In this document: positions 24,707-55,600 of the stretch, in pieces
Layout: every line of letters starts with the position of its first letter
Numbering within the stretch: the first letter of the stretch is position 1
Source of the DNA: Ascidia mentula
Taxonomy: Eukaryota > Chordata > Ascidiacea > Phlebobranchia > Ascidiidae
NCBI GenBank assembly: GCA_947561715.1
Contig: OX387202.1
Span: 19,419,001 to 19,483,000, forward strand
DNA: 64,000 nt
Reading direction: 5' to 3'
Program-made: the position numbers and the translations under genes
The notes under the pieces: model-generated
Told to the model about the DNA's origin: nothing
Database searches by the model: none
Seen by the model: the letters and a program-made list of their open reading frames with translations, nothing else

Positions 24707-24714
24707 TATTGTTT
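24707..24714. repeat. Left target-site duplication TATTGTTT
   Basis: These 8 bp directly precede the left transposon terminus and are identical to 40860-40867, which directly follow the right terminus. An exact 8-bp match at both predicted ends fixes the element borders. Confidence 0.93.
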
Positions 24715-27700
24715 ACCACCGTCATTTCGGCGAAATGAAATTTGGTTAAAACCGAAATTATTTCACGCATGAATAAACACGGCTTCAAACAATTGTGTTC
24801 AAACATAATAAGCATTAACTCACGAAAAAAACAAAAATGAGTTGTAATAACAAACATTTCAATCAGCAAGGTGTCCAATATTTGCAAAACAATATCTACA
24901 CTTTAAAATTGCAATTTTTGAACACCTATAAAGTACATAACAACGAAATGGGTTTGACTGCGGTGTCGCTGTGTGAATCCCAGCATTCGCGTATTTTCGG
25001 CGCTGCATACAAGTGCCAATTTAATGATGTTCCGGGCCATAGGATTTTTTAAAAATTGGTGTAGAATAGGCTCAGAACATATAGATCACATTACAATAGC
25101 GTTTTTTGAACACCTATAAAGTATATCGCAACGAAATGGGTTTGACTGCGGTCACGCTGTGTGAATCCCAATATTAGCGTATTTTCGGCGCTGCATACAA
25201 GTGCCAATTTAATAATGTTCCGGGCCATAGGATTTTTTAAAAATTGGTGTAGAATAGGCTCAGAGCATGTAGATCACATTACAATAGCGTTTTTTGAACA
25301 CCTATAAAGTATATCGCAACGAAATGGGTTTGACTGCGGTCACGCTGTGTGAATCCCAGCATGCATGCGCATTGTTCGTCAAAGGCTTTGACTCAAACAG
25401 AAGGCAGTGAGCATTTGCGGCGCTGCATACAAGTGCCAATTTAATAATGTTCCGGGCCATAGGATTTTTTAAAAAATGGTGTAGAATAGGCTCAGAGCAT
25501 GTAGATCACATTACAATAGCGTTTTTTGAACACCTATAAAGTATATCGCAACGAAATGGGTTTGACTGCGGTCACTCTGTGTGAATCCCAGTATTAGCGT
25601 ATTTTCGGCGCTGCATACAAGTGCCAATTTAATAATGTTCCGGGCCATAGGATTTTTTAAAAATTGGTGTAGAATAGGCTCAGAGCATGTAGATCACATT
25701 ACAATAGCGTTTTTTGAACACCTATAAAGTATATCGCAACGAAATGGGTTTGACTGCGGTCACTCTGTGTGAATCCCAGCGAACGCGTATTTTCGGCGCT
25801 GCATACAAGTGCCAATTTAATAATGTTCCGGGCCATAGAATTTTTCAAAAATTGGTGTAGAATAGGCTTAGAGCATGTAGATCACATTACAATAGCGTTT
25901 TTTGAACACCTATAAAGTATATCGCAACGAAATGTGTTTGACTGCGGTCACGCTGTGTGAATCCCAATATTAGCGTATTTTCGGCGCTGCATACAAGTGC
26001 CAATTTAATGATGTTCCGGGCCATAGGATTTTTTAAAAATTGGTGTGGAATAGGCTCAGAGCATGTAGATCACATTACAATAGCGTTTTTTGAACACCTA
26101 TAAAGTATATCGCAACGAAATGGGTTTGACTGCGGTCACGCTGTGTGAATCCCAGCATGCATGCGCATTGTTCGTCAAAGGCTTTGACTCAAACAGAAGG
26201 CAGTGAGCATTTGCGGCGCTGCATACAAGTGCCAATTTAATAATGTTCCGGGCCATAGAATTTTTTAAAAATTGGTGTAGAATAGGCTCAGAGCATGTAG
26301 ATCACATTACAATAGCGTTTTTTGAACACCTATAAAGTATATCGCAACGAAATGGGTTTGACTGCGGTCACGCTGTGTGAATCCCAATATTAGCGTATTT
26401 TCGGCGCTGCATACAAGTGCCAATTTAATAATGTTCCGGGCCATAGGATTTTTTAAAAATTGGTGTAGAATAGGCTCAGAGCATGTAGATCACATTACAA
26501 TAGCGTTTTTTGAACACCTATAAAGTATATCGCAACGAAATGGGTTTGACTGCGGTCACGCTGTGTGAATCCCAGCATGCATGCGCATTGTTCGTCAAAG
26601 GCTTTGACTCAAACAGAAGGCAGTGAGCATTTGCGGCGCTGCATACAAGTGCCAATTTAATAATGTTCCGGGCCATAGAATTTTTTAAAAATTGGTGTAG
26701 AATAGGCTCAGAGCATGTAGATCACATTACAATAGCGTTTTTTGAACACCTATAAAGTATATCGCAACGAAATGCGTTTGACTGCGGTCACGCTGTGTGA
26801 ATCCCAATATTAGCGTATTTTCGGCGCTGCATACAAGTGCCAATTTAATAATGTTCCGGGCCATAGGATTTTTTAAAAATTGGTGTAGAATAGGCTCAGA
26901 GCATGTAGATCACATTGCAATAGCGTTTTTTGAACACCTATAAAGTATATCGCAACGAAATGGGTTTGACTGCGGTCACGCTGTGTGAATCCCAGCATGC
27001 ATGCGCATTGTTCGTCAAAGGCTTTGACTCAAACAGAAGGCAGTGAGCATTTGCGGCGCTGCATACAAGTGCCAATTTAATAATGTTCCGGGCCATAGGA
27101 TTTTTTAAAAATTGGTGTAGAATAGGCTCAGAGCATGTAGATCACATTACAATAGCGTTTTTTGAACACCTATAAAGTATATCGCAACGAAATGGGTTTG
27201 ACTGCGGTCACTCTGTGTGAATCCCAGCGAACGCGTATTTTCGGCGCTGCATACAAGTGCTAATTTAATGATGTTCCGGGCCATAGGATTTTTTAAAAAT
27301 TAATGTAGAATAGGCTTAGAACATGTACATCACATTACAATAGCGTTTTTTGAACACCTATAAAGTATATCGCAACGAAATGGGTTTGACTGCGGTCACG
27401 CTGTGTGAATCCCAGTATTAGCGTATTTTCGGCGCTGCATACAAGTGCCAATTTAATAATGTTCCGGGCCATAGAATTTTTTAAAAATTGGTGTAGAATA
27501 GGCTTAGAGCATGTAGATCACATTACAATAGCGTTTTTTGAACACCTATAAAGTATATCGCAACGAAATGGGTTTGACTGCGGTCACGCTGTGTGAATCC
27601 CAGTATTAGCGTATTTTCGGCGCTGCATACAAGTGCCAATTTAATAATGTTCCGGGCCATAGGATTTTTTATAAATTGGTGTAGAATAGGCTTGGAACAT

Positions 27701-27946
27701 GTAGATCACATTACAATAGCGTTTTTTGAACACCTATAAAGTATATCGCAACGAAATGGGTTTGACTGCGGTCACGCTGTGTGAATCCCAGTATTAGCGT
27801 ATTTTCGGCGCTGCATACAAGTGCCAATTTAATAATGTTCCGGGCCATAGGATTTTTTATAAATTTGTGTACAATAGGCTTAGAGCATGTAGATCACATT
27901 ACAATAGCGTTTTTTGAACACCTATAAAGTATATCGCAACGAAATG
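24715..27946 (+). repeat. Left inverted terminus: unique tip plus 15-interval tandem array
   Basis: After the tip (24715-24919), the motif GAACACCTATAAAGTA marks unit starts at 24920, 25108, 25296, 25528, 25716, 25904, 26092, 26324, 26512, 26744, 26932, 27164, 27352, 27540, 27728 and 27916. Eleven intervals are exactly 188 bp and four are 232 bp. The extra 44 bp comes from a 60-bp cassette (starting GCATGCATGCGC) in place of a 16-bp one (GTATTAGCGTATTTTC) between the same flanks. Short-unit variants with GCGAACGCG at that spot also occur. Confidence 0.95.
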
Positions 27947-27949
27947 AAC

Positions 27950-28665
27950 TTGTCCTAGATGTATTTTTCTGAAATTTTGCTGAGAAACTTGTACTTTTCG
28001 ATGTCTTCTATATTGTCAGACAGGCGACTAAATGAAAACCAAATTTGAAACCCGTCAACAAAAACAATGGAAGCGATGAATCGATTGAACAATTGCTCCC
28101 TTTGGTTTGGCAAGGATTATTTTTTTTCTTCCCGCAGACTTCGATCGCATAACCCTTTAACTTCACTGATAGTAAAGTAAATTGGCAGGCCAGACAGCAG
28201 ACGTGATAAAACTTAAAGGGTCGTAAATTGAAACAATGGAACAAGGAACCGATTGAACAATTGTATCCTACGAAGTGGCAAAATTTATTTTACTTCCCAC
28301 AAGGTCCGAAACGTCAGAACTTGATTGATCAAGACGTGAACAAACTTGGAAGGACGCATATAAAAACAAAGGAAGCTGCGAACCGATCGAACAATTGTTT
28401 TGCGGAAAACTTTGGAAATTGATTTCCCTTCCCGCAGGTTTAGAAACGTAGCAATTGTTGCATCTTATGTGTTTCGATTTGTCCCCCGTTGGGCTTGACC
28501 GGTCCAGTCAAATCGCCAATTTACTTTTCGATCTGTCAAATCATTTTTTTCTTTTTTTGCGAACACCCTATTAAAACTCGTGTGTTTTTAAATTCTGTCA
28601 TAATATGAACAACTTACAACAAGTCAGCGAGTTGACTTTGAGAAGCTAGTTGTTATTTTTGCAGT
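27950..28665 (+). promoter_or_regulatory. Transposon leader with threefold repeat, likely promoter and 5' UTR
   Basis: Three diverged copies of a 135-168-bp unit precede the reading frame. Each has GATTGAACAATTG or GATCGAACAATTG (28083, 28251, 28385) followed by CTTCCCGCAG or CTTCCCACAA (28128, 28293, 28428). Repeats just upstream of a transposase gene can be promoter or transposase-binding elements. A strong acceptor-like TTATTTTTGCAG ends at 28664, one base before the ATG region, which suggests a 5' UTR intron or leader trans-splicing. Confidence 0.55.
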
Positions 28666-31600
28666 ATGGTCACATTCAGAGAAGTTATTTTCAAGATTTT
28701 TGTGCCATGTGTTGCTGGTAGCAATTTAAAACGCAGAGAGGTTGCAAAGGCGACCGACTGTAGTTTTCGTCCCTATGTTGGACAATGTTTTGGAGGTAAG
28801 CATGTCGTGGGTGAAAATTTGTTAAACCCCATGGCATGGATTTGGTTGTTACGCATTTTATTTTTTTTGGTCCAAGATTTTTTTTTCGTTTTATTAGCAT
28901 TTCTTGTGTTTTACACACTATTTATGTTGTACTGTTTGTGTGCTATTGGCACTGGCTACATATTTAGCGTTGTTCTGCATGCATTACTACATGTACCTGG
29001 TCCACACAGAATTTATGTTAGACTGTTTTCTACTTCTAATTGTGCTCACCCGAGGCAGCCTAATCTAATATATGGCATAAATTGCACCGGCTTACGCAGT
29101 CTAATACCATCGGGTAAGTTAATGTGGTGTGTAACGCGCACTGGTGGTTCCAGATTTGTAACTTCCGAAGACAAAATGAACCTCATTGCAAAGTATTTGT
29201 CCATGCGTGGTCGTAAAAAATTTAGTAGAAACCAAGCACAAGACTTTCTCAGCAACTGTAATCTTTGGGAGGGTTTGCATTCCAGGAAACGCGTGAAACG
29301 GCTTTTTAACTTTTGTCGTTCTTTTCGCACGGAAATTAATACTTTATTACGTAAATGTACTGGCTTTGAATCCACGCCGTTTAGAAAACAGAATATTTTT
29401 TTTAGTGCTGTGCCGTCACTGGTAAAACATTTACACAGATATCCAAACACTTCAAAATTGCCGTGTAAGGCGGTTAATGCCACGTTGAAGTCTTGCAAAA
29501 TTGCCCTAAGCACAAAAAACAAGCTTAAAGTGAACAGACTCTGGGTAATAGACCCGATGTTTCGACAATCTGTACAAGATTTGTATAACAGGTCAAAGGG
29601 ATTTAATACTACACCAGTCCCAGTATTAAGTAGTAGTACCCCTTCACGTTCTGAAGATCTTTTCTGCATTTGCAAAACCCCTTATGATGGTAGATTGATG
29701 GTAGAATGCGAAACATGCAAACAATGGTTTCACCCTAGTTGTGTTTTTACAAGTTTGTCTGTTCCCGCAACACTTTCTGAAAAACAATGGAAACGTTCTC
29801 GCCTCGTTTGTCCAGGTGTAAAACTTTCCTCACCACATAGCTATGAGCACATGTTGGTTGAAAGTGAAAGCATGGACGGTTTAGTTGGTGATAGAGACCC
29901 AAGTTTACCTTCCTCAAGCAAACGTTGTAAGGTAAGTTTGTCTCCTATATTACCGGATGTACCTATTTCTCCAATTAGAAACACACTGGATAATTTGTCC
30001 AGTGAAATAACCTCTGAAACTTCCCGTAATGTAACAGAAACGTTTGAGGACGATATGGCAACAATTGTATATCGTGATTTACCTTTTGATGAAAATGCTG
30101 ACGTTTTAAGTGAACTTGGGGGAATAAGTAACGAAACAAAGCAAAAGTTTCCGCACACAGCAGACGTCAATATAGATGGTGTGTTTGTTCTATCTGTGCA
30201 GGAATGGCAGTCATTAGTCAAAAATAGATCCGTCAACCATTTTGCTAACGATTTTTACATAGGAGTAACAATTAGGGAAATTCGCAAAATATACCCAGGC
30301 TGTGTTCCAAACGTGTCCAACAACTATCTTATGAGTTTTGATGGGGTAAAAGACATTACAAAGGAAGAAAAATGTTATAAAGAAGGTTGGATTAACTTTT
30401 ATTGCGGTCACCGCAGATGTGAAGATTGTGTGTGTGGAGTCAGGTTTGTAGTAACGTTTTGGTCTTTTGTTGATAAAGTTGAAGGAAGGGTTAAAATATC
30501 AGGTAAGCGTAACCACCTACCAGGCTGTAAGAAAAGTAGACGAATAACTGGAATAATGAGGATGAAACTTCGAAAGACATTGGTTCATCAAACCGCTGTC
30601 AAGCAGCATCGCACATTATTTAACACGCTTTATCCAGAAGAACGATGGCTGGGTGCCCATACGTACCTGCCTTCCCAATCGGTCTTGAACAATATAAAAA
30701 GCGAAACGTATCTCGGAACACGTAGAAGTAAGTTGTGGTTTATTAATTTGGATTGTTTGCGTGTCGTGTTGGCAAATCAAAATAAACCATTTATCAGGAA
30801 CATTCGTTTACACCCTCCAGAAGTAACGCTATATTCCAATGCACAAATAAAAATTTTTAATCAAATTTGTGCCTTTGATATTGCGTACTTGGATGCGACC
30901 GGCAGCGTGCTTCGACGCATGGAAAGTTACTCTGATTTTCAAATATATACATTACTAATTCGAAACCCTAATAAGGGTGGGACACCGCTTCCAGTTGCAA
31001 CTCACGTAACATCGAAGCATGATGCGGTAAACATCAGTCATTTTTTGGAAACATTTTTGTCGGATTGCCTCAAAATATGCAGCACCGTACGCAAACCAAA
31101 ACTACTTGTTATTGATGGCTCGTTCGCTATGTGGAACTCCGCTTTAAAGGCATTTTGTCACGAAACACGATTGACCTTTTACAACCGATGTTACCGTATT
31201 GTTACAGGAGTTCCGTTGAAGAATGACATGCAAGAAACTTTCGTGCACAATTGCTATAGCCATGCCATGAAAGCAGCTAAAGTGCTATGCAACAAGTATA
31301 GTGAAAATAAAAAACTCCTGAAAACATACTTGTATTGGATTAATGCATTTTTTTGTTGTGTAACTATTTTTGAACTAGATAGTATGGTGGAAAGTTTTAT
31401 AGTTTTAACCAATAACGAATCCACTTCATCATTAGTGGAACTTCATTTTAAGCGTTTAAAAGAAAAGGTATTTTCTGACCAAGCCGACTGCGACATAAAC
31501 GAAGGCGAATGTTTTGTTTCTAATTCCGATTTTGTTTACACATCCAAGCATTCAGATAAACTGCAAGAACGCCAATCACCTTTTTATCTCAGATATCGAA

Positions 31601-34503
31601 GCAAGCTTGACTCCTACTTGAAGTCGGATGTGTCCCAGAAGTTCAATACAAGTACCAGTAAAAATGTGTATTACAACCCAACATTTTGTGCACGTGTAAT
31701 AGAAATAATTTTGAGTAGAATTTGTGCTACATCAAAATTACTGCTGGGGGATTTATCCCGACATATAAACAAAGAAAAAACCACTTATCAACAGGAACAA
31801 CTGTTTAATATGTACTCAAGTAAATGTAACTTGTTAAAAAATTGTAAACATCAGACCATTTTACAGAACAATCAAACGCAAGGAATAATCGAAGAGCATT
31901 TTGGTGACCTGAAATCAAACATATTAGACGGAAAAAGAGTTGCGCGATTAGATGAATTTGTCATTAAATATCATGAATCAATACTAATTTTACAAAAATT
32001 ATTTGCAGATTCCATCACACATTTATATACCAAGCCTGGTAGACGTACAAATGTCACTTCGGATGCTGTCAAGCGTACGCAGGTGGTAGAATCTAAATTC
32101 AAAAAGAGAAAAAGAAAAGAGAAAAGTTTTTACTCTTCAGAAACGTTTTCTCAAAATCTGAAATACGCAAATAAGCCATGCGATTCCTCTCAAAAATTCG
32201 AAAAACTTATTGTCACCCCAGTTCTGCCACGTTTTACGTTTTGTCCAGATCACAGCGAAATTCATACATCGTGCAAGGATCTTGCTTACTATGTTTGGCA
32301 TCTTATTCCATTTACTCCCACTTCTATTTTTAATACAGCTTTAGTCACGCCTTCTGGTGAGTCACTGTCATGGTTGGATTTGTGTTCGCTTTGCAGTAAA
32401 CCTAGAGGTAAAACCTATATCTCTTTAACTCAAAATCCAATCAACACTCATAATGATGCAACGATTGGATGGTTAACGAATAATGTAGTAGATTGTTATA
32501 TTTCCAGAACAGTCAGAAATGCTAATTCCGTACACCCTGGTAAGTTTGGTTTTCTTTCAACCGTATTAGCAGGTGAAATACTGAGTGGAAAGAAGTTAAA
32601 AAACATACGAAGGGCATGCCATGGAATGTTTTTTGGAGAAAAATTGTGCGAAAATATTTTCATTCCAACATTGTTCGAGCGACATTTTGTGGTTTTATGG
32701 TTTAAACAGGTTAATGGAGAACTGATACTTTTTAATTCAGCTCCGGGGTCCAGCAGACAATTATCAAGTTTAATTAGGAAAAACTTGATACCGATTTTAT
32801 GCCTTTTCACAAGCAATGAAATCATACAGAAAAACAGCTCACTAGTTGAGCAGGAAGATTTGTCAAGTTGCGGCTTATGTGCATGTTTTACTGTTGACAC
32901 CATTACAAACTATGTACTGAAGGTAAGTGAATTGGAATTTGTTGTTGCGCGCTTTCGCATTTGGATGTTATACGCGTTAGTTGAAGACTCTGCAAGTTGC
33001 AGCGACAAAGTTGCACTATTTTTGAAGAAAAATAGTTTGGTCCAGCTGGGTCTCCCTAATGTTCACAACAACTGTTGGTTAAGTAGTCTGTTTCAAGCAG
33101 CCCAATGTTTATTTGATGAGATTCCAGTGGCCACCATCGGTGAAACTTTACGAGAAAGAATCGCTAACTTCATTTGTCGCCTCTATCTCAAACAATCAGA
33201 TAACAACTTGTACTTGCAGTTGGTCAAAGATGTATGTGGCGCACTTGGCTGGAAGTTGGGTCAGCAACAAGACCCAAATGAATTTTTAATGGTATTTGAT
33301 TTTAGCTCTATTTTAAAATACTGTAATCTTAACATGTGTTTTCAGTACAAAACATCTGCAACTTGCCAGTCCTGTGGTAATGTTACCGAGTCAGTGCAAG
33401 AACAATCTCTACTGACGTTGCCTGTTGCCGATAACATTGCTGACAATAGTGATCTGGCCACATACTGTGATGCTGAGTTTCGAAACACGGCATTTAGGAC
33501 ATGCCCCTTTTGTCATAAACAAGCTACCACAAATATGGAAGGCCAGATCACTGATGTTTCGAATATATTGTGTATTGGACTTCACAGAAATGTGGATGGC
33601 CACAAACGAAAGAGAAGAATCGTTCCAAATCAGGTTTTACATATTTCGCAACATTTCTCTTTTCAGTTAGTGTCCGTTCTCGTGCACATTGGAGACAGTG
33701 TAAGCTCGGGTCACTACGTGGCGTATCAATTTTGTGAATCTGGTTTAACTGAATTTGATGACGCAGTTTTAAAACACGTCACTTGGGCTAGTGTTAAAGA
33801 AAGAATTCTTACTGGTTGTTGTACATTATTTTACAAAAGAGTTAAATCTAACCTTCACGATCCTAACCAGCAACCAAAGATTGTAATTCGTCGGAAGCGA
33901 CGCCGCTTCAACGAAGAGGCAGCAAAATCAACCGAATGCCTGGTTTATAAAAATATTACTTTAAAACAACAAGTTAACGGTAAAGATGTTGAAATTTCGG
34001 AATTGGACGATTTATCTTCAGACATTAAAGATATCTACGATTTCGTTGCGAAACAGCTCAAAACAGTTCTTTTTCAGACGTTTGAACAAGGTCAGTTCCG
34101 GACAGATTGTTACCGCCTTTGTTTATGTTACCGGGAACACACTAAAAGCCTTATAATGTATAATCGAACTGTACGGCAACAAATATTATCGGCAAATGTC
34201 CATATGAACCTTTGGAGATTTGTAGAGTTCTCCTTTTGTCAACTCCTTATCCGACAACAACTCGTGGGGACACAAATTTTTCGAGAATCTATTGCTGATT
34301 TTGTGCTAAAACCTGAGTTGATCAGTAAACATACCATGTTGGGACATATAGTGTTGGACAAAAAGATAAAATCCAGGTTTATTTTGTGTCAAATACTCAA
34401 TTTTGAGGCAGAAATTCTGTACGTAATGAAATTTAATAATTTTACGTACGAAGATGCCTCTCTTAAGCTTGGTTTTCCTGCACTGATGTACAAAAATCTA
34501 TAA
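28666..34503 (+). CDS. Giant transposase polyprotein: PHD-like, DDE transposase, Ulp1-like and USP protease domains
   Basis: One open frame of 1945 codons fills the transposon core. Seen in order: a hydrophobic stretch at about 58-110; a degenerate PHD finger at about 333-383 (CIC, VECETCKQWFHPSC, but the last Cys pair is incomplete); a Cys/His-rich region at about 575-625 resembling FLYWCH/WRKY-type DNA-binding zinc domains; a DDE core with D743 (AYLDATGSVL), D817 (LLVIDGSFAMW) and E1076/E1077 (GIIEEHFGDLK), with a long insertion before the Glu as in Mutator-like enzymes; a Ulp1-like protease (H1340, N1357, Q1396, C1402); and a ubiquitin-specific protease (C1470 box, zinc CxxC pairs, H1683 box, D1698/D1699). 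About 200 residues follow without recognised domain. The enzyme probably moves its own element; the proteases may strip SUMO or ubiquitin from it or from host factors (inference). A donor-like AG|GTAAGC at 28796 could start an in-frame 102-nt intron removing part of the hydrophobic stretch. Confidence 0.88.
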   Translation: MVTFREVIFKIFVPCVAGSNLKRREVAKATDCSFRPYVGQCFGGKHVVGENLLNPMAWIWLLRILFFLVQDFFFVLLAFLVFYTLFMLYCLCAIGTGYIFSVVLHALLHVPGPHRIYVRLFSTSNCAHPRQPNLIYGINCTGLRSLIPSGKLMWCVTRTGGSRFVTSEDKMNLIAKYLSMRGRKKFSRNQAQDFLSNCNLWEGLHSRKRVKRLFNFCRSFRTEINTLLRKCTGFESTPFRKQNIFFSAVPSLVKHLHRYPNTSKLPCKAVNATLKSCKIALSTKNKLKVNRLWVIDPMFRQSVQDLYNRSKGFNTTPVPVLSSSTPSRSEDLFCICKTPYDGRLMVECETCKQWFHPSCVFTSLSVPATLSEKQWKRSRLVCPGVKLSSPHSYEHMLVESESMDGLVGDRDPSLPSSSKRCKVSLSPILPDVPISPIRNTLDNLSSEITSETSRNVTETFEDDMATIVYRDLPFDENADVLSELGGISNETKQKFPHTADVNIDGVFVLSVQEWQSLVKNRSVNHFANDFYIGVTIREIRKIYPGCVPNVSNNYLMSFDGVKDITKEEKCYKEGWINFYCGHRRCEDCVCGVRFVVTFWSFVDKVEGRVKISGKRNHLPGCKKSRRITGIMRMKLRKTLVHQTAVKQHRTLFNTLYPEERWLGAHTYLPSQSVLNNIKSETYLGTRRSKLWFINLDCLRVVLANQNKPFIRNIRLHPPEVTLYSNAQIKIFNQICAFDIAYLDATGSVLRRMESYSDFQIYTLLIRNPNKGGTPLPVATHVTSKHDAVNISHFLETFLSDCLKICSTVRKPKLLVIDGSFAMWNSALKAFCHETRLTFYNRCYRIVTGVPLKNDMQETFVHNCYSHAMKAAKVLCNKYSENKKLLKTYLYWINAFFCCVTIFELDSMVESFIVLTNNESTSSLVELHFKRLKEKVFSDQADCDINEGECFVSNSDFVYTSKHSDKLQERQSPFYLRYRSKLDSYLKSDVSQKFNTSTSKNVYYNPTFCARVIEIILSRICATSKLLLGDLSRHINKEKTTYQQEQLFNMYSSKCNLLKNCKHQTILQNNQTQGIIEEHFGDLKSNILDGKRVARLDEFVIKYHESILILQKLFADSITHLYTKPGRRTNVTSDAVKRTQVVESKFKKRKRKEKSFYSSETFSQNLKYANKPCDSSQKFEKLIVTPVLPRFTFCPDHSEIHTSCKDLAYYVWHLIPFTPTSIFNTALVTPSGESLSWLDLCSLCSKPRGKTYISLTQNPINTHNDATIGWLTNNVVDCYISRTVRNANSVHPGKFGFLSTVLAGEILSGKKLKNIRRACHGMFFGEKLCENIFIPTLFERHFVVLWFKQVNGELILFNSAPGSSRQLSSLIRKNLIPILCLFTSNEIIQKNSSLVEQEDLSSCGLCACFTVDTITNYVLKVSELEFVVARFRIWMLYALVEDSASCSDKVALFLKKNSLVQLGLPNVHNNCWLSSLFQAAQCLFDEIPVATIGETLRERIANFICRLYLKQSDNNLYLQLVKDVCGALGWKLGQQQDPNEFLMVFDFSSILKYCNLNMCFQYKTSATCQSCGNVTESVQEQSLLTLPVADNIADNSDLATYCDAEFRNTAFRTCPFCHKQATTNMEGQITDVSNILCIGLHRNVDGHKRKRRIVPNQVLHISQHFSFQLVSVLVHIGDSVSSGHYVAYQFCESGLTEFDDAVLKHVTWASVKERILTGCCTLFYKRVKSNLHDPNQQPKIVIRRKRRRFNEEAAKSTECLVYKNITLKQQVNGKDVEISELDDLSSDIKDIYDFVAKQLKTVLFQTFEQGQFRTDCYRLCLCYREHTKSLIMYNRTVRQQILSANVHMNLWRFVEFSFCQLLIRQQLVGTQIFRESIADFVLKPELISKHTMLGHIVLDKKIKSRFILCQILNFEAEILYVMKFNNFTYEDASLKLGFPALMYKNL
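32683..32871 (+). other. Ulp1/SENP-type (C48) protease motif block
   Basis: His1340 (RHFVVLWF), Asn1357 (LILFNSAPGS), Gln1396 and Cys1402 (VEQEDLSSCGLC) occupy the order and spacing of the Ulp1 family: 17 residues from His to the acidic position and 6 from Gln to Cys, as I recall for yeast Ulp1. The acidic residue is Asn here, which some cysteine proteases tolerate. The call depends on motifs and spacing only. Confidence 0.75.
33046..33840 (+). other. Ubiquitin-specific protease (C19) domain
   Basis: GLPNVHNNCWLSSLFQ matches the USP Cys box (GLxNLGNTCYxNSxLQ), with catalytic C1470. Two CxxC pairs (TCQSCGN and RTCPFCHK) form the zinc ribbon of the fingers region. VHIGDSVSSGHYVAYQF is the His box (H1683), and EFDDAVLKHV holds the third catalytic residue. 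The whole catalytic set is intact, so activity is plausible. Confidence 0.88.
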
Positions 34504-35620
34504 AATCCATGTTGTTGTGAATACTTTGTGTCGATTTGTGTTCATTCCCGTGACTGTATGTTTGTTGTATGAGACTTTTTAAAACTTCACCAACGTGAAA
34601 CCAAAAAAATATTTGTGTTGTTTGGGTCGTTGCATGCCTTAAGTTGTAGTAATCGTAATTATGCTGTGAATGTTTTGTTTTTGTGTTAATCTTATATTTT
34701 TTGCATTTGCCGCTAGGACAAACCTCTTGTACTTAAAATCGTTGGTGCGTTAATCAATGTAAGGCCAGATATGTTATTTTACCCAATAATTTTAAAGGCC
34801 GTGGTCTACTTATGCTAAAATCTTATTAGAACTTGCTTTAACTTTAAACTCCAACTTCAATCTGCCAAATAACTGTTTATTTGTTAAATCTTTAAAATAA
34901 ATCCACTACGGTTGCCGGAACCTTGACGTGGTGTAGTGGCTTTAAACAAATACCGGCAAGTGATACAATATGTTTGTAAAATTATTTTTGCACAAGCTTA
35001 TGTGACTTTAAACACAATTCAAAGCGTTTTTTACCGCCCAAAAGTATCCTTGTGTCCTTTTATTGAATGGTAATGTAAAATCATTTACATTAATTACAAA
35101 AATTTTGTTTGTAGTTTGCCAACCCACCGTCGTAGCAGCCCCACAAGTAGTGAGAAGCTGCAACACTATGGTTTCTAGCAAACGAAAAGAAAGATGAATT
35201 TTAAACAACTTACCTGTATCGCAACAGATGCCTCGTTGGAAGTGCGGCCGCACACAATGCCCCCAGGAATTTCTTAAATTTTTTTTTTTAATGATGCTAA
35301 ATAGCTGAGTATGCTGCGGACACACCATTGACGCCTTGTTAAATCCCCATTGGGCTTTGCTACGCCACACAAGATAAAGAATCGTCACTTAATCAATGAA
35401 AACGTTCACCCACATAATTCACTGTAATGTGATATCAGTTAAACGTCGACGTTGCCACTTAAAATTCATCCCACACATTTTCGAAACACGGACATATTCG
35501 AAAATACCTCCATTTATGTTTTGAATGATTTATTTTCGCAACATTTACATTGTTATGCGTGGGCGGAAATAAAAAAGGGGAGATTGTGATACTAAGAGGT
35601 ATATTTAATTAACATAACAT
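34504..35620 (+). other. Transposon 3' non-coding segment
   Basis: About 1.1 kb between the stop codon and the right inverted terminus, without a supported gene. AATAAA at 34896-34901, 393 nt after the stop, is a good candidate poly(A) signal for the transposase transcript. Confidence 0.6.
34896..34901 (+). terminator. Likely poly(A) signal of the transposase transcript
   Basis: AATAAA lies downstream of the transposase stop codon and upstream of the right repeat array. Confidence 0.5.
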
Positions 35621-38600
35621 AATCGTTGAGATATATTTTATAGGTGTTCAAAAAACGCTATTGTAATGTGATCTACATGTTCTGAGCCTATTCTACACCA
35701 ATTTTAAAAAATCCTATGTCCCGGAACATTATTAAATTGGCACTTGTATGCAGCGCCGCAAATGCTCACTGCCTTCTATTTGAGTCAAAGTCTTTGACGA
35801 ACAATACGCATGCATGCTGGGATTCACACAGCGTGACCGCAGTCAAACCCATTTCGTTGCGATATACTTTATAGGTGTTCAAAAAACGCTATTGTAATGT
35901 GATCTACATGCTCTGAGCCTATTCCACACCAATTTTTAAAAAATCCTATGGCCCGGAACATCATTAAATTGGCACTTGTATGCAGCGCCGAAAATACGCG
36001 TTCGCTGGGATTCACACAGAGTGACCGCAGTCAAACCCATTTCGTTGCGATATACTTTATAGGTGTTCAAAAAACGCTATTGTAATGTGAACTACATGCT
36101 CTGAGCCTATTCTACACCAATTTTTAAAAAATTCTATGGCCCGGAACATTATTAGATTGGCACTTGTATGCAGCGCCGCAAATGCTCACTGCCTTCTGTT
36201 TGAGTCAAAGCCTTTGACGAACAATGCGCATGCATGCTGGGATTCACACAGCGTGACCGCAGTCAAACCCATTTCGTTGCGATATACTTTATAGGTGTTC
36301 AAAAAACGCTATTGCAATGTGATCTACATGCTCTGAGCCTATTCTGCACCAATTTTAAAAAATCTTATGGCCCGGAACATTATTAAATTGGCACTTGTAT
36401 GCAGCGCCGAAAATACGCTAATACTGGGATTCACACAGCGTGACCGCAGTCAAACCCATTTCGTTGCGATATACTTTATAGGTGTTCAAAAAACGCTATT
36501 GTAATGTGATCTACATGCTCTGAGCCTATTCTACACCAATTTTTAAAAAATCCTATGGCCCGGAACATTATTAAATTGGCACTTGTATGCAGCGCCGAAA
36601 ATACGCTAATACTGGGATTCACACAGCGTGACCGCAGTCAAACACATTTCGTTGCGATATACTTTATAGGTGTTCAAAAAACGCTATTGTAATGTGAACT
36701 ACATGCTCTGAGCCTATTCTACACCAATTTTTAAAAAATTCTATGGCCCGGAACATTATTAGATTGGCACTTGTATGCAGCGCCGCAAATGCTCACTGCC
36801 TTCTGTTTGAGTCAAAGCCTTTGACGAACAATGCGCATGCATGCTGGGATTCACACAGCGTGACCGCAGTCAAACCCATTTCGTTGCGATATACTTTATA
36901 GGTGTTCAAAAAACGCTATTGCAATGTGATCTACATGCTCTGAGCCTATTCTGCACCAATTTTTAAAAAATCTTATGGCCCGGAACATTATTAAATTGGC
37001 ACTTGTATGCAGCGCCGAAAATACGCTAATACTGGGATTCACACAGCGTGACCGCAGTCAAACACATTTCGTTGCGATATACTTTATAGGTGTTCAAAAA
37101 ACGCTATTGCAATGTGATCTACATGCTCTGAGCCTATTCTGCACCAATTTTTAAAAAATCTTATGGCCCGGAACATTATTAAATTGGCACTTGTATGCAG
37201 CGCCGAAAATACGCTAATACTGGGATTCACACAGCGTGACCGCAGTCAAACCCATTTCGTTGCGATATACTTTATAGGTGTTCAAAAAACGCTATTGTAA
37301 TGTGATCTACATGCTCTGAGCCTATTCTGCACCAATTTTTAAAAAATCCTATGGCCCGGAACATTATTAAATTGGCACTTGTATGCAGCGCCGAAAATAC
37401 GCTAATACTGGGATTCACACAGCGTGACCGCAGTCAAACCCATTTCGTTGCGATATACTTTATAGGTGTTCAAAAAACGCTATTGTAATGTGATCTACAT
37501 GCTCTGAGCCTATTCTGCACCAATTTTTAAAAAATCCTATGGCCCGGAACATTATTAAATTGGCACTTGTATGCAGCGCCGAAAATACGCTAATACTGGG
37601 ATTCACACAGCGTGACCGCAGTCAAACCCATTTCGTTGCGATATACTTTATAGGTGTTCAAAAAACGCTATTGTAATGTGATCTACATGCTCTGAGCCTA
37701 TTCTGCACCAATTTTTAAAAAATCCTATGGCCCGGAACATTATTAAATTGGCACTTGTATGCAGCGCCGAAAATACGCTAATACTGGGATTCACACAGCG
37801 TGACCGCAGTCAAACCCATTTCGTTGCGATATACTTTATAGGTGTTCAAAAAACGCTATTGTAATGTGATCTACATGTTCTAAGCCTATACTACACCAAT
37901 TTTTAAAAAATCCTATGGCCCGGAACATCATTAAATTGGCACTTGTATGCAGCGCCGAAAATACGCTAATACTGGGATTCACACAGCGTGACCGCAGTCA
38001 AACACATTTCGTTGCGATATACTTTATAGGTGTTCAAAAAACGCTATTGTAATGTGAACTACATGCTCTGAGCCTATTCTACACCAATTTTTAAAAAATT
38101 CTATGGCCCGGAACATTATTAGATTGGCACTTGTATGCAGCGCCGCAAATGCTCACTGCCTTCTGTTTGAGTCAAAGCCTTTGACGAACAATGCGCATGC
38201 ATGCTGGGATTCACACAGCGTGACCGCAGTCAAACCCATTTCGTTGCGATATACTTTATAGGTGTTCAAAAAACGCTATTGCAATGTGATCTACATGCTC
38301 TGAGCCTATTCTGCACCAATTTTAAAAAATCTTATGGCCCGGAACATTATTAAATTGGCACTTGTATGCAGCGCCGAAAATACGCTAATACTGGGATTCA
38401 CACAGCGTGACCGCAGTCAAACCCATTTCGTTGCGATATACTTTATAGGTGTTCAAAAAACGCTATTGTAATGTGATCTACATGCTCTGAGCCTATTCTG
38501 CACCAATTTTTAAAAAATCCTATGGCCCGGAACATTATTAAATTGGCACTTGTATGCAGCGCCGAAAATACGCTAATACTGGGATTCACACAGCGTGACC

Positions 38601-40859
38601 GCAGTCAAACACATTTCGTTGCGATATACTTTATAGGTGTTCAAAAAACGCTATTGTAATGTGAACTACATGCTCTGAGCCTATTCTACACCAATTTTTA
38701 AAAAATTCTATGGCCCGGAACATTATTAGATTGGCACTTGTATGCAGCGCCGCAAATGCTCACTGCCTTCTGTTTGAGTCAAAGCCTTTGACGAACAATG
38801 CGCATGCATGCTGGGATTCACACAGCGTGACCGCAGTCAAACCCATTTCGTTGCGATATACTTTATAGGTGTTCAAAAAACGCTATTGCAATGTGATCTA
38901 CATGTTCTGAGCCTATTCTGCACCAATTTTTAAAAAATCTTATGGCCCGGAACATTATTAAATTGGCACTTGTATGCAGCGCCGAAAATACGCTAATACT
39001 GGGATTCACACAGCGTGACCGCAGTCAAACACATTTCGTTGCGATATACTTTATAGGTGTTCAAAAAACGCTATTGTAATGTGAACTACATGCTCTGAGC
39101 CTATTCTACACCAATTTTTAAAAAATTCTATGGCCCGGAACATTATTAGATTGGCACTTGTATGCAGCGCCGCAAATGCTCACTGCCTTCTGTTTGAGTC
39201 AAAGCCTTTGACGAACAATGCGCATGCATGCTGGGATTCACACAGCGTGACCGCAGTCAAACCCATTTCGTTGCGATATACTTTATAGGTGTTCAAAAAA
39301 CGCTATTGCAATGTGATCTACATGCTCTGAGCCTATTCTGCACCAATTTTTAAAAAATCTTATGGCCCGGAACATTATTAAATTGGCACTTGTATGCAGC
39401 GCCGAAAATACGCTAATACTGGGATTCACACAGCGTGACCGCAGTCAAACCCATTTCGTTGCGATATACTTTATAGGTGTTCAAAAAACGCTATTGTAAT
39501 GTGATCTACATGCTCTGAGCCTATTCTGCACCAATTTTTAAAAAATCCTATGGCCCGGAACATTATTAAATTGGCACTTGTATGCAGCGCCGAAAATACG
39601 CTAATACTGGGATTCACACAGCGTGACCGCAGTCAAACCCATTTCGTTGCGATATACTTTATAGGTGTTCAAAAAACGCTATTGTAATGTGATCTACATG
39701 CTCTGAGCCTATTCTGCACCAATTTTTAAAAAATCCTATGGCCCGGAACATTATTAAATTGGCACTTGTATGCAGCGCCGAAAATACGCTAATACTGGGA
39801 TTCACACAGCGTGACCGCAGTCAAACCCATTTCGTTGCGATATACTTTATAGGTGTTCAAAAAACGCTATTGTAATGTGATCTACATGTTCTAAGCCTAT
39901 ACTACACCAATTTTTAAAAAATCCTATGGCCCGGAACATCATTAAATTAGCACTTGTTTGCAGCGCCGAAAATACGCGATCGCTGGGATTCACACAGCGT
40001 GACCGCAGTCAAACCCATTTCGTTGCGATATACTTTATAGGTGTTCAAAAAACGCTATTGTAATGTGATCTACATGCTCTGAGCCTATTCTACGCCAATT
40101 TTTAAAAAATCCTATGGCCCGGAACATTATTAAATTGGCACTTGTATTCAGCGCCGAAAATACGCTAATACTGGGATTCACACAGCGTGACCGCAGTCAA
40201 ACACATTTCGTTGCGATATACTTTATAGGTGTTCAAAAAACGCTATTGTAATGTGATCTACATGCTCTGAGCCTATTCTACACCAATTTTTAAAAAATTC
40301 TATGGCCCGGAACATTATTAGATTGGCACTTGTATGCAGCGCCGCAAATGCTCACTGCCTTCTGTTTGAGTCAAAGCCTTTGACGAACAATGCGCATGCA
40401 TGCTGGGATTCACACAGCGTGACCGCAGTCAAACCCATTTCGTTGCGATATACTTTATAGGTGTTCAAAAAACGCTATTGTAATGTGATCTACATGTTCT
40501 GAGCCTATTCTCCACCAATTTATAAAAAATCCTATGGCCCGGAACATCATTAAATTGGCACTTGTATGCAGCGCCGAAAATACGCGAATGCTGGGATTCA
40601 CACAGCGACACCGCAGTCAAACCCATTTCGTTGTTATATACTTTATAGGTGTTCAAAAATTGCAATTTTAAAGTGTAGATATTGTTTTGCAAATATTGGA
40701 CACCTTGCTGATTGAAATGTTTGTTATTACAACTCATTTTTGTTTTTTTCGTGAGTTAATGCTTATTTTGTGTGAACACAATTGTTTGAAGCCGTGTTCA
40801 TTCATGCGTTAAATAATTTCGGTTTTAACCAAATTCCATTTCGCCGAAATGACGGTGGT
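35621..40859 (-). repeat. Right inverted terminus: 25-interval tandem array plus unique tip
   Basis: This is the inverted counterpart of the left terminus. The marker GTGTTC of each unit occurs 26 times from 35644 to 40649; 18 intervals are 187-188 bp and seven are 231-232 bp with the same 60-bp cassette. The unique tip is about 40655-40859. The array is 2 kb longer than the left one, so unit numbers have drifted independently, as expected from unequal exchange or replication slippage. Confidence 0.95.
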
Positions 40860-40867
40860 TATTGTTT
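40860..40867. repeat. Right target-site duplication TATTGTTT
   Basis: Identical to 24707-24714 and directly adjacent to the right terminus of the transposon. Confidence 0.93.
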
Positions 40868-49664: not shown

Positions 49665-52600
49665 TAGACTTTTCAAAAGGAAAAACAAATTAGTATCTCA
49701 GGTTTGAAACTTCATAGACTTATAAGCTAACGTTTATATGTCTAATTGTTACTGGCACCTTGCTATAATGTGAGAAAGAGTTGCTATTTCTCCATATGGG
49801 GGTAAATGTGTGAACACAGTCAATGCGTACACTGCCAGATGTGATTTTGAAACTAACTTTACAATCGTCGAACCAACAATGCCTGAAATGTTATGGAAAC
49901 CATCCACTTTTATCACAGGAATTATGCATACCTTTCAGTTGTGCTGGAACCTTAACATAATTACTATGGTCAGCGACATTTTGCTATGGCTTTTATATTT
50001 CAAGTAATTCATCACAGTATTTTGCAACACTAAAGTGTGCCCTGTCTGTCCCTAATTGATTATTTCCTGAATGACAGGAAGTGCACAGATTCTGTTTGAA
50101 GAATGAGGCAAGTACACAATTCCGTTACCCAAACACGAAGGAGATTCTCTCGGACAAAGTAAAGATTGTCATCACTACGTTCGCCACAGCTCTTGCACTG
50201 GGTAGACTTGCAACTGGTTTAACTGGAGCTTTCACCCACATATTTCTCGATGAAGCTGCTCAGGTATTTGGCCATTCTGCTCTGCTTCCATAAATCAATG
50301 CGAAAAATAGAAGTGTTGTGATGCATGGCCAACATAACACACAACATAATTATGAACAAAATCCTGTTCAACAGCAACTACACTTGGGTGCACACTTTGG
50401 GTGGTGGTATAGGAAAACAGTTTGTTAAGATTATAATTTCATGATATGCATTTCACTGTGTGTTGGCATCGCGTTTAAAGAACCAATGTTTTGTTTACTG
50501 TTGTTTATACGGAAAGCACATAATTTGTTACAATACCTTGCATCTTTGCAACCATGTCATGGCTGGATATTGTTCATTTACTTGGCTTTGTAAAGTAAAA
50601 ACTTTTCAAATAAAGTAAAAACATTTCTGATAAAAGCATAGTTTTCCAATATTATTGACACATTACAAATCCTAGAAGTTTTTTTTAATATGTTTGTACA
50701 GTTGTGAATTAAGTTACAATGTAAGCGCCATGTAAACACTATCTTTCCATGTAAACAGGCGATGGAATGTGAAGCGATCATTCCTCTGACCTTGGCTTCT
50801 ACTAACAACACCAAGGTGATTGTTGCCGGTGATCACATGCAGATTTCACAGAAGGTAAATCACGATATGTTAACGTGCACATGTTTGTTGACATCTGTAA
50901 CAAGGTATGATGCAATCGTTTCAGATGTACAGCAAGAAATTTGGCTCAGAGTCCCATTATACCCTGGTGGAACGGATGTACACAAGATACAAAACTTTCC
51001 CCCGAAACTTACATGATAGTCTTTATACTTTCCTCACCAACAACTACAGGTTACACAAGAAAACTACCTAATCTGCCTAAATATGTTAATATTTTTGAAG
51101 AATTGTATATATCCCAAACTATTTCGTTTTTAGATGCGTGCAACCAATATTGTATCTCATTCAAGAGGTTTTCTACAAGCCAGGTCTTCTGAAAGCTTGT
51201 GCAAACGAACAACTTTATTTGTCAGGATTGAATCCAGTGCAGTTTTATCACTTAAAAGGTACGGACATTGAAATATTCAAAACCTAAGCCCTTGATCTCA
51301 AAACACATTGCAAGATACTTGCAGAAACTGATGGCAACAAAATTATTTTGTAGTGGTCCTTTAATAAACTGACTTTAACGTGAAACATTTTGTTTCAAAG
51401 AATTAAATTGGTTGCGTTTCTAATACAAAGCGGTTGTATAACTTCCAGGAAAGTGCGTCGAAGATATTTCAAGCGGAGGTTTTTACAACATGGAAGAAGC
51501 CGAACGAGCTGTTTTCGTAGTGGATGACGTCATCAGAAATTCGAGGGGGGCTTTGGAAGAGAGTGACGTAGTGGTTGTTTCATCCTATTACACTCAGGTT
51601 ATTTGTTAGAAATTGCAGACAGACGAAAAACTATGATATGTAGTACGAAATTGTTTAACGAAATTGTTTAACGTTATTTTTACACCTAGTGTAAGCTGGA
51701 CACTTTGATCTGCTTTTGTGTTGTGCTGTCAGGTTACAGTTTTTTGATTTCGTTATTCTCTCACCTACAAACTATTCAAAGATTTTAAGTCAGATTTGAA
51801 AATTTCCTGGCTTGTTTGTTTCAGGTTAAATGCATTCGAAACCTGATGAGAGCTCAACGGAAATCCAGAGTGAATGTTCGTAGAGTGAGGGATGTACAAG
51901 GTATAAATATATCGAGTTTAGTTTTTTACATATTGGTCAACACCACAGTTGTGATTGCGAGAGTTTTTGTGTTCAATGTTCAAGTAACCACAAAGCCACC
52001 TCTGCAAAGTAATAGTGAAAGATAATGCGATTTTCGGCTGACTGGTGTGAAAAGGCAAACGAATCATAGCTAAACGAATGTGTTAGGATGTGAGGTACGT
52101 TTGTTTGTACATTTCAGGCCTCGAGTACAAGGTTGTAATCATGAGTTGCGTTCACTCTCGAACTTCACCTCAAGACACAACTGGTTCAAAATCTGGACTT
52201 CTCTCTGACGTAGGACTGCTCAACACCGCCATCACGCGGTCGAAAGTTGCTGTGATCGCCATTGGTGATGCAGTCACTCTGTGTTCTGTTGGAGGTTGCC
52301 ATATGAGATGGGATAAATATCTCAGAGTGAGTTCAGTAGGAATTTTGGTGCAGGTTGTTTCGTGGTATTTCGATATTAATCACAAACAATCATTTTTTAC
52401 TGTGGCAACCTGTTAGCTTGGACGCTACTGCGTTGAGCAACATTAAATTGTGTGTTGTCTTCAGTTTTGTGATCTGAACCGTTCTTTGTGGCCTCCAAAC
52501 GAGTCTTACCAACATATAAAGTACGAGGTGTATGCAATATCTCTGCTTAATCCGGACGCCCAGGGCTTTGTGCCGAGGAGACGAACTTCCCAGAAACCTA

Positions 52601-55600
52601 GACCTTCAGCATCTTCTGACATCCAACAATCGGCAGAAGACGTAACGAACTTCTTCATTCATGGTTTCGTAATTGTTTTGAGACAAACAATGCCTCTGAT
52701 GTAAAATCATGTGCAAACGTTTCGATTATGTTTGTAACCATTTTCAACGCACTAGAACAATATTATCACACAATATTTATTGGCACTAATAGTGCTATTC
52801 ATGCTTCCAGGCATAGTAAATAAATGAGAATTGTTCTTCCGACACACTATTTATGAGAGTTTTTTTATTGTAACCAACATTTCGTCCACCATACGGCGAG
52901 ACTTCCTCAAAGTTATGTCGCAACAATAATACAACAAGCGCATAAAACACAAAATCGCAAGAAAAACGTAAGAAAAGCACAGATAACATTGGCACTGTAG
53001 TTTTGTTCTTTGTTATAGTTGGTAGATGAACGATAAATGCTTTTAAAAACTCGTTTTTTTTATTTGTAGGAAGATGAATTTGTGGATTCCGACAGCAACG
53101 AGGATGACGACGACAATTACGAGCATGAAGTAGGTTTGCTTGGAAGTGGGGTAAAGATAAAAAAAAACAAATATAATTTTAAACGTCTGGGAAACGTAGA
53201 AAGTGGCAGACGACAGTGTCTTGTATAATCTTTCTGTTGGAAGAATAGAAATGTTATATTTGACTGATGGAACAGTCAATTGCTGTCTTACTCAAATAAT
53301 ATTACAGCTAATCGTTAGCTACTCTTGAGTTCCCTGGGTACTGATCCGTCGGTTAACACCTGGCAGCACAGGCTGATAAACTACCAACGATATTTTTTTC
53401 AGGATTCACTTGCCAGAGTCGACGACAAAATTCTGGACGATATTCTTGAGAAACAACTCGGTTATCGACCAGAAAATATCGTCGTGAAGGTCGACAGAAG
53501 CGGTTTGGAATATCTGGGAGCGATTAAGGACGATCCCAATGAACCGAAACCTGATCTCAGGTTTGCTTTATTGGATTATTCATAGTTCCGCCTTATAGAC
53601 GTAACGTTTCTGGCTTAGTTTTGATAGCAAACATGAAGATCAGAAAATAAAAAGTTTTTTAACGGTCTGATGTCGTTTCAAACGCTTAAAGACCTCTTGT
53701 TTCATTTATAACAGCGCCTTACTGTGGTATTTACCTTTTTTAAAAAGCCAACGCAAAGTACTATCATAAATACCTTGTAACCTCCAATAATTCCAAATCA
53801 AATCACCTTTATTTTGTGCGCGAAGTTCCTACGCATACGAACAACGACCGTGGTGCATAAATTGGCACCGATATAAACACAATCGAGTCAGGCGCTCATG
53901 GGGTCAAGTGGTTTACAGGCTTCGCAGCCCAGGCATTGCAAATCCTGCCAATCATGCCATTGCATGAAACATTACTGCGTTGCCCATGGAGTCAGATGAA
54001 ATACCACACAAAAAAAAGCTTCCATTCTAATGACCCTGCTTTTAACTTTCAGAAATCACTTTCGTAAAAAAACAGTCATCCACCAGAAGTTCACGTTGGG
54101 TCAGCTACAGGATCTCCTGATTAATCAGCCACAAAAGTACAAGCATTGCTACCTGAACATGCTGACCTGGTACTCGGCAGAAGCCATACTAAAGGAACCC
54201 GACGAAGATTTAAGCAGAATATCTTTGGAGACAAGAAGGAGTCTGGGTCGAGCTTTCAACAAAGATGAAGTTGTTGTTCACGTCATTCGGGTATCCGCTA
54301 ACAACCAAGCAATAAACTTACTTGAGCCATTTTATGCAAATAGTATATTTTATTCAAATTAATTTCCCACGTCCATCGTAGTTCCATTCGTCTCCTCAAT
54401 TTTGATAAACGCATTTATTCGGTTGCTAAGGGATGGATTCACGCAGCTCTGTAGGTCACATGCCTGGAATGCCGAGGGTTGTGAGTTTAAATCGCACCAG
54501 CGACTTGTTTTGTATAATGTTACAAATTTGTTATTTTTTTTGAAAAACAAACAAACAAAAGGCTTCTTCGTTTTTCAGATTCCAGGACGGCCTACAAACG
54601 GGAAGGTGATTGGAGTTCTGTCAAGGTAATTTCTTCTTAAAAGTTTAACTCCAATACTGAGTAACCACATAGGTCTTTCCTTTGTAGTGATGACATTTAC
54701 AATTTATTCAAAAGTTTTATATACGACCTATGTTTTACAAGGGTAAGTATGTTGAAAATACTTTGTTTCCAAATTATCTTAATTTTTCTTTAAACTTATA
54801 ATAGTATTGAGAGCTGCAGATTCAACACGTAAGGTCTCGTCAGTGCAGCTGGCTATATGACTGCCTGATATCCAAAACTGCTGAAGGCTCAGCGATCACC
54901 AAAACCATTATTAGAATACAGGAATTGTGTTAAACAGATACAAGGAACCCCGCAGTAGGGAGTTCGTATGCATTCCCGATCAGTACAACCCGATGTTCAT
55001 GTGTCCTGTGGATTACAAGGTGGCCAAGTTCATCGTCCATAGAGAAAAAGGCGCAAAGGCGGATAAAGTCTGTGTTTATCGTTTCACTGCCAAGGGTTCG
55101 TATTTCTACTGAACATTTTTTCAATTTTTTTTCTTTAAATGGGGTTGATTTTGAGTGTGAGGTTTTAAATACAATAGTCAAATACAATAACAGTTAACTG
55201 TATCGCAGGTATGTGAAAAATACCTGTTTGGTTTGATTTTCCCTCAGTGCCATAAACAATATCAGCCTCGATTTTAAGGATTATAGTACTGTTTGCAGAA
55301 ACATTGAAAAAGCTCTTCGAAGAACGTGTTGATCTGAATGCTTACACAAGAGGCGGCGGAAAGCTTTTCATCGTTAGATATCTGAACTGGAGTGAATACA
55401 GTTTGTACCCGTACGGATACGTGGCGAAGGTTATAAAGGCGGCTGAAGCTGAAAGATATTTCGCAATTGCCTTTGATCGTCCCACAGAACACAAGTTAGA
55501 CTCTTTTGAATTGTTTTATATCTTCCCAGATCTAATTCAAACAACATGGCCAAAGAAACCGATTTCACATTATAAAATTATAAAGAAGGCTACGCTTGTT

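Follow-up and report, generated by a model that had tools for sequence, protein, structure and literature searches.

Why would a DNA transposon encode, beside the enzyme that moves it, proteases for two different protein tags of its host? This question is raised by a locus of the ascidian Ascidia mentula (assembly GCA_947561715.1, contig OX387202.1, positions 19,419,001 to 19,483,000 of the forward strand), a stretch of 64,000 nucleotides that was analysed whole and is called the window here, with coordinates counted from its first nucleotide. A preliminary description of this DNA had recognized motifs of a DDE transposase, a Ulp1-like protease and a ubiquitin-specific protease (USP) in one 1945-codon frame (28666-34503), with a PHD-like finger in front. 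All four domains stand, on the evidence of sequence profiles, predicted folds and protease catalytic residues that, save at one Ulp1 position, are conserved in 21 of 21 frames. We give a probability of about 0.55 to the following account as a whole: the frame belongs to a mobile, Mutator/IS256-like family of cut-and-paste DNA transposons, active or recently active, whose PHD-DDE-Ulp1-USP protein would use its proteases in cis on SUMO and ubiquitin. The combination suggests an element that edits the host protein-tagging system while moving.

The frame is enclosed by a complete transposon of 16,145 bp (24715-40859; Table 1). Its inverted arms, 3.2 kb on the left and 5.2 kb on the right, align in pieces that are up to 98% complementary, and both unique ends start with ACCACCGTCATTTC. 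Copies were searched for in the genome (195.8 Mb, 79 contigs), where 40 matches to the 201-base left end are listed. We examined 11 insertions, that of the window and 10 further pairs of facing ends, reading 100 bases at each end. A perfect 8-bp target-site duplication, different in sequence each time, flanks 10 of them, the only pair without one being L059/L060 (C52:19844084-19846013). The distance between the paired ends examined ranges from about 1.3 kb to 31 kb, so the same ends also serve short relatives that are too small to hold the gene. The 188-bp unit of the arms has 435 genome matches; among the matches listed, the loci coincide with the element ends that were found. At the upper limit of length, the ends lie 31 kb apart at G000:C71:810486-841778, with the target duplication CAAATTTC; this is perhaps a nested or cargo-bearing element, and neither genome search described below (800-residue or DDE-only) lists a transposase match inside it.

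Within the protein, the PHD finger and the USP domain both exceed the Pfam cut-offs, and a predicted USP fold was found. The predicted fold of the DDE domain resembles the IS256, Hermes and P transposases; the model has an RNase H fold with a helical insert, and C-x2-H follows the second Asp, as is typical of the superfamily of Mutator-like elements (MULE). The Ulp1-like domain of the window alone had no Pfam match. A profile of the family domain matched SENP1 (1.2e-5), and Pfam Peptidase_C48 was detected at E<=10 in 11 of 14 members (best 1.3e-4). The Ulp1 model has blocks with a predicted local distance difference test score (pLDDT) of 72-94 over residues 111-230 of alignment A2 (see below) and of 59 over 231-240, which hold the catalytic Cys; the structure-search matches listed are all USP-type chains, for a query that was not Ulp1 by itself. 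Of the profiles proposed in the preliminary description, Pfam matched PHD and UCH, with no match for MULE, KDZ or the window Peptidase_C48; predicted folds bear out DDE and USP, and the Ulp1 model is ordered save around the catalytic Cys.

To what extent are these domains kept across the family? An 800-residue query that runs from the end of DDE through Ulp1 and USP gave 72 genome matches, 22 of which are open over 756 residues or more. Four of these, including the window, have 99-100% identity, and 18 have 33-54%. We fetched 20 of the 21 open copies outside the window and aligned their longest frames with the protein of the window; the N-terminal part is absent in five (L014, L018, L019, L020 and L024). 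Profiles and models were built on smaller alignments. Alignment A1 has 16 rows, without the near-identical L009-L011 and the partial L014 and L019; A2 has 18 rows, without L009-L011; A3 has 14 rows, also without L014, L019, L024 and L025; and A4 has 12. The protease catalytic residues are invariant in all 21 frames, barring one Ulp1 position. In Ulp1, the His-Asp-Gln-Cys order and the WL motif are recognizable, with W, H, Q and C always present and the Asp position occupied by Asp in 11 frames and Asn in 10. In USP, the Cys, His and Asp boxes and the zinc ribbon are all retained. This holds down to L028, the least similar frame (identity to the window 42% in DDE, 28% in Ulp1 and 26% in USP). 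Ratios of nonsynonymous to synonymous substitution rates (dN/dS) were computed pairwise per domain for 18 pairs, very divergent pairs with saturated dS not being interpreted. At dS of about 0.14-0.75 they are 0.12-0.19 for DDE, 0.30-0.40 for Ulp1 and 0.21-0.39 for USP: all three domains are under purifying selection in moderately diverged pairs. Since the catalytic residues are invariant and selection is purifying, both proteases are likely working enzymes.

Several observations weigh against the account given above. The window Ulp1 has Asn in place of the usual Asp. Nonsynonymous changes outnumber synonymous ones in the USP of close pairs (5:0 in L021/L022, 4:0 in L021/L025, 4:1 in window/L011), USP ratios reach 0.58 (L012/L013) and 0.47 (L015/L016), and the DDE of L021/L025 has a ratio of 1.22 on 6 changes; the numbers are small and may reflect a recent relaxation of constraint. 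The DDE model has a mean pLDDT of 60.9, a middling confidence. No Pfam MULE-type transposase profile matched any of 16 members scanned (window and 15 relatives), possibly because such profiles are too narrow for this domain; with the DDE domain as query, a sequence-profile search of PDB gave no meaningful match and a viral structure library no match at E<=0.001. Relatives beyond this genome were absent from the collections scanned, all viral or prokaryotic: viral_contigs (A1, A2) and genome_contigs (A1) gave pattern matches and no relative. Finally, the proteases could instead serve polyprotein processing.

On the cis account, the transposase would cut and paste the element through its terminal repeats by DDE chemistry. 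PHF2 and SPP1, the nearest relatives of the PHD finger in sequence, are readers of H3K4me3, and the finger would bring the transposase to open chromatin. There, Ulp1 would strip SUMO, and USP ubiquitin, from the transposase itself and from chromatin proteins close by. In combination, the two would reverse SUMO-primed ubiquitination and silencing, and the transposase would persist long enough to act. SUMO-targeted ubiquitination is an established pathway, and we prefer it to silencing alone because its reversal would need both a SUMO and a ubiquitin protease. An action on both tags, for stability or against silencing, is plausible. A SUMO and a ubiquitin protease kept over deep divergence would mark both tag systems as obstacles to, or tools for, DNA transposition; the catalytic cysteines 1402 and 1470 offer a handle on why transposons carry Ulp1-like domains, in a natural protein that unites a histone reader, a DNA-cutting enzyme and two deconjugase domains.

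Some viruses have Ulp1-type proteases that cleave at Gly-Gly, and in the first alternative, which we regard as rather unlikely, Ulp1, perhaps with USP, would mainly serve maturation: by a cut at the Thr-Gly-Gly (TGG) around residue 160, it would release the transposase from a membrane-like piece at the N-terminus. TGG precedes the PHD finger in every examined frame that reaches this region (window, L012, L013, L015-L017 and L021-L028, the near-identical L009-L011 being uncounted) except L028, in the context Leu-Val-x-Thr-Gly-Gly or similar in the window and in the N-terminal regions of L012-L027; its codons differ between frames, hence conservation is at the protein level. The hydrophobic segment upstream has counterparts in other subfamilies, with maxima of 1.80-2.74 in 8 of 10 TGG-bearing frames scanned, and purifying selection acts on the stretch before TGG, with ratios of 0.22-0.41 in five of the six informative pairs and of 0.65 in the sixth, L022/L026 (three further pairs were too close or saturated). 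These points are consistent with maturation, but L012 and L013 keep TGG without a hydrophobic segment (maxima 0.43 and 1.05), and TGG is missing at this place in L028 and in both USP-less frames described below. A Gly-Gly at residue 771, within the DDE domain, is also frequent (10 of 13 frames), so that Gly-Gly alone proves little, and maturation leaves the retention of two proteases unexplained. The TGG and the hydrophobic stretch before it also point to a combined possibility, which we hold to be unlikely: a membrane-tethered, self-maturing transposase in which Ulp1 (or USP) would cut behind the Gly-Gly of the SUMO-like Thr-Gly-Gly and release a PHD-DDE-Ulp1-USP enzyme that then strips both tags.

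Several N-terminal frames of L012-L017 and L021-L027 contain long amino-acid repeats with differing units, and a CFGC-like motif recurs among them. The first Met comes only after more than 400 open codons in L013, L016, L017, L021, L022 and L025, which likely reflects an upstream exon or an unusual start.

DNA repair is governed by SUMO and ubiquitin, and once the DNA is cut the proteases might work in trans on repair or checkpoint proteins of the host, favouring cell survival. The idea has been published: passages of PMC2836005 suggest it for the Ulp1 and OTU domains of Ginger elements (here and below, published systems are compared by such passages of the cited papers). The present data do not separate trans from cis action, yet fusion to the transposase would favour local action, and we consider the trans explanation quite improbable.

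Could the protease domains be captured passengers without function? Mutator-like elements often capture pieces of host genes, according to passages of PMC6446971, and the excess of nonsynonymous changes in the USP of close pairs would suit this; the invariant catalytic residues at 26-28% identity in L028 and the dN/dS of 0.2-0.4 in moderately diverged pairs make it very unlikely. A chimeric frame, made by the assembly or joined from separate genes, has no supporting point and a next to negligible probability: the four near-identical copies lie at separate places with different target duplications, ruling out an assembly join, and 18 further open copies share the domain order.

When did the two proteases come together? 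A DDE-only genome search gave 81 matches, including five places at 27-29% identity, two of which (L061 and L062, on C71) were read. The L061 DDE matches the family with an hhalign E of 4.7e-42. In both frames, DDE is accompanied by a Peptidase_C48 above the Pfam cut-off and by a PHD finger at the C-terminus, and UCH is not matched; a search of the whole genome for UCH (threshold E 0.001) lists nothing at any of the five places. USP may therefore be the later gain, which suggests an ancestor with DDE, Ulp1 and PHD to which USP was added; alternatively, USP was lost in the distant group. The L061 Ulp1 matches the family Ulp1 profile weakly (probability 1.6, E 0.031), which does not establish a shared origin for the two Ulp1 domains. 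In a tree of USP domains, 12 transposon USPs form one group against five host stretches (99/97), a result read with the program's warning of long branches and with only five host UCH matches included; the best-scoring host stretch of the five, L064 (52.4 bits), is one we take to be USP36-like.

The L016 frame is a mosaic: its DDE half is L017-like (92-97% DNA identity, residues 630-1155) and its protease half L015-like (94-97% from residue 1230 on), with a switch near residues 1155-1305. By this pattern, transposase and protease modules can be exchanged between lineages.

Which known elements does the family resemble? KDZ (Zisupton) elements are marked by a CxC cysteine cluster; KDZ, sought here by profile alone, was not among the Pfam matches at E<=10, and the element is not assigned to this group. 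Target duplications of 8 bp are also produced by hAT and P elements. They lie within the 8-11 bp of MULEs (PMC6446971), and the long terminal inverted repeats (TIRs) likewise agree with MULEs. Rehavkus elements share a PHD finger in a MULE-like transposase and a minisatellite, there before the 3' TIR; they differ in a 9-bp duplication and TIRs of 26-400 bp, whereas tandem units form both TIRs here, and membership is excluded by duplication and repeat length. The passages on Rehavkus (PMC6446971) mention no protease. Long, internally repetitive inverted repeats also recall foldback-type elements (Tetris, Galileo, Tm1), an architecture common to different superfamilies; the abstract text on these elements mentions no protease domain.

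The preliminary description knew of no transposon with a complete USP, a claim that is limited by Trichomonas vaginalis XP_001314237.1, in which transposase_11 is joined to Peptidase C19 (PMC2836005); this single cited protein has a different transposase family, and the passage mentions no Ulp1 or PHD for it. MuDR elements of hydra and lancelet carry Ulp1, and some Mutator transposases PHD (PMC2836005), the animal DDE, Ulp1 and PHD set that L061 and L062 have; in this comparison by description only, those passages mention no USP. Ginger1 shares a C-terminal Ulp1-type protease, or has OTU, with PHD beside Ulp1 in one family; it differs in a Gypsy-integrase-like transposase, and Table 1 of PMC2836005 lists OTU or Ulp1, not USP. 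Helitrons likewise encode deubiquitinase-type domains, VTD (activity reported) and OTU, but they are rolling-circle elements with no DDE transposase and other protease families, and Ulp1 is unmentioned in the text of PMC9741609. Novelty is limited by these precedents in Mutator, Helitrons and Trichomonas. A transposase with both Ulp1 and USP was not found in the open-access literature searched, most subscription papers and Repbase being outside this scope, and the passages of PMC13359780 and PMC12062965 hold nothing on such proteases.

Table 1. Features of the transposon, in window coordinates
Feature	Position	Strand	Remark
Left target-site duplication TATTGTTT, 8 bp	24707..24714	.	identical 8 bp at 40860-40867
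Left TIR: unique end (ACCACCGTCATTTC...), then tandem 188/232-bp units	24715..27946	+	
Transposon protein, single open frame	28666..34503	+	1945 aa
Hydrophobic, membrane-like segment, residues ~61-105	28846..28980	+	Kyte-Doolittle 19-residue maximum 2.66
Thr-Gly-Gly, residues 159-161, possible Gly-Gly cleavage site	29140..29148	+	13/14 frames
PHD finger, residues 331-375	29656..29790	+	Pfam PF00628 3.8e-7; PHF2, SPP1 in PDB
DDE transposase domain, residues 690-1125	30733..32040	+	D743, D817, CxxH 863-866, E1076
Ulp1-like (C48) cysteine protease domain	32248..33033	+	H1340, N1357, Q1396, C1402
Ubiquitin-specific protease (C19/UCH) domain	33031..33900	+	N1465, C1470, H1683, D1699; zinc C1567/1570/1613/1616
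C-terminal region	33901..34500	+	no family match over cut-off; low identity between subfamilies
Right TIR: tandem 188/232-bp units and unique end	35623..40859	-	
Right target-site duplication TATTGTTT	40860..40867	.	

Elsewhere in the genome there are 87 Peptidase_C48 matches. Several of them lie in ~600-codon frames that occur at more than one site, and this host may have many other repeats that carry Ulp1. A search of the window against Rfam gave no match at the gathering score. Adjoining the element, HELZ2-like gene pieces (AAA_12, OB_HELZ2 and RNB) with split coding lie at 52090-59635 on the + strand.
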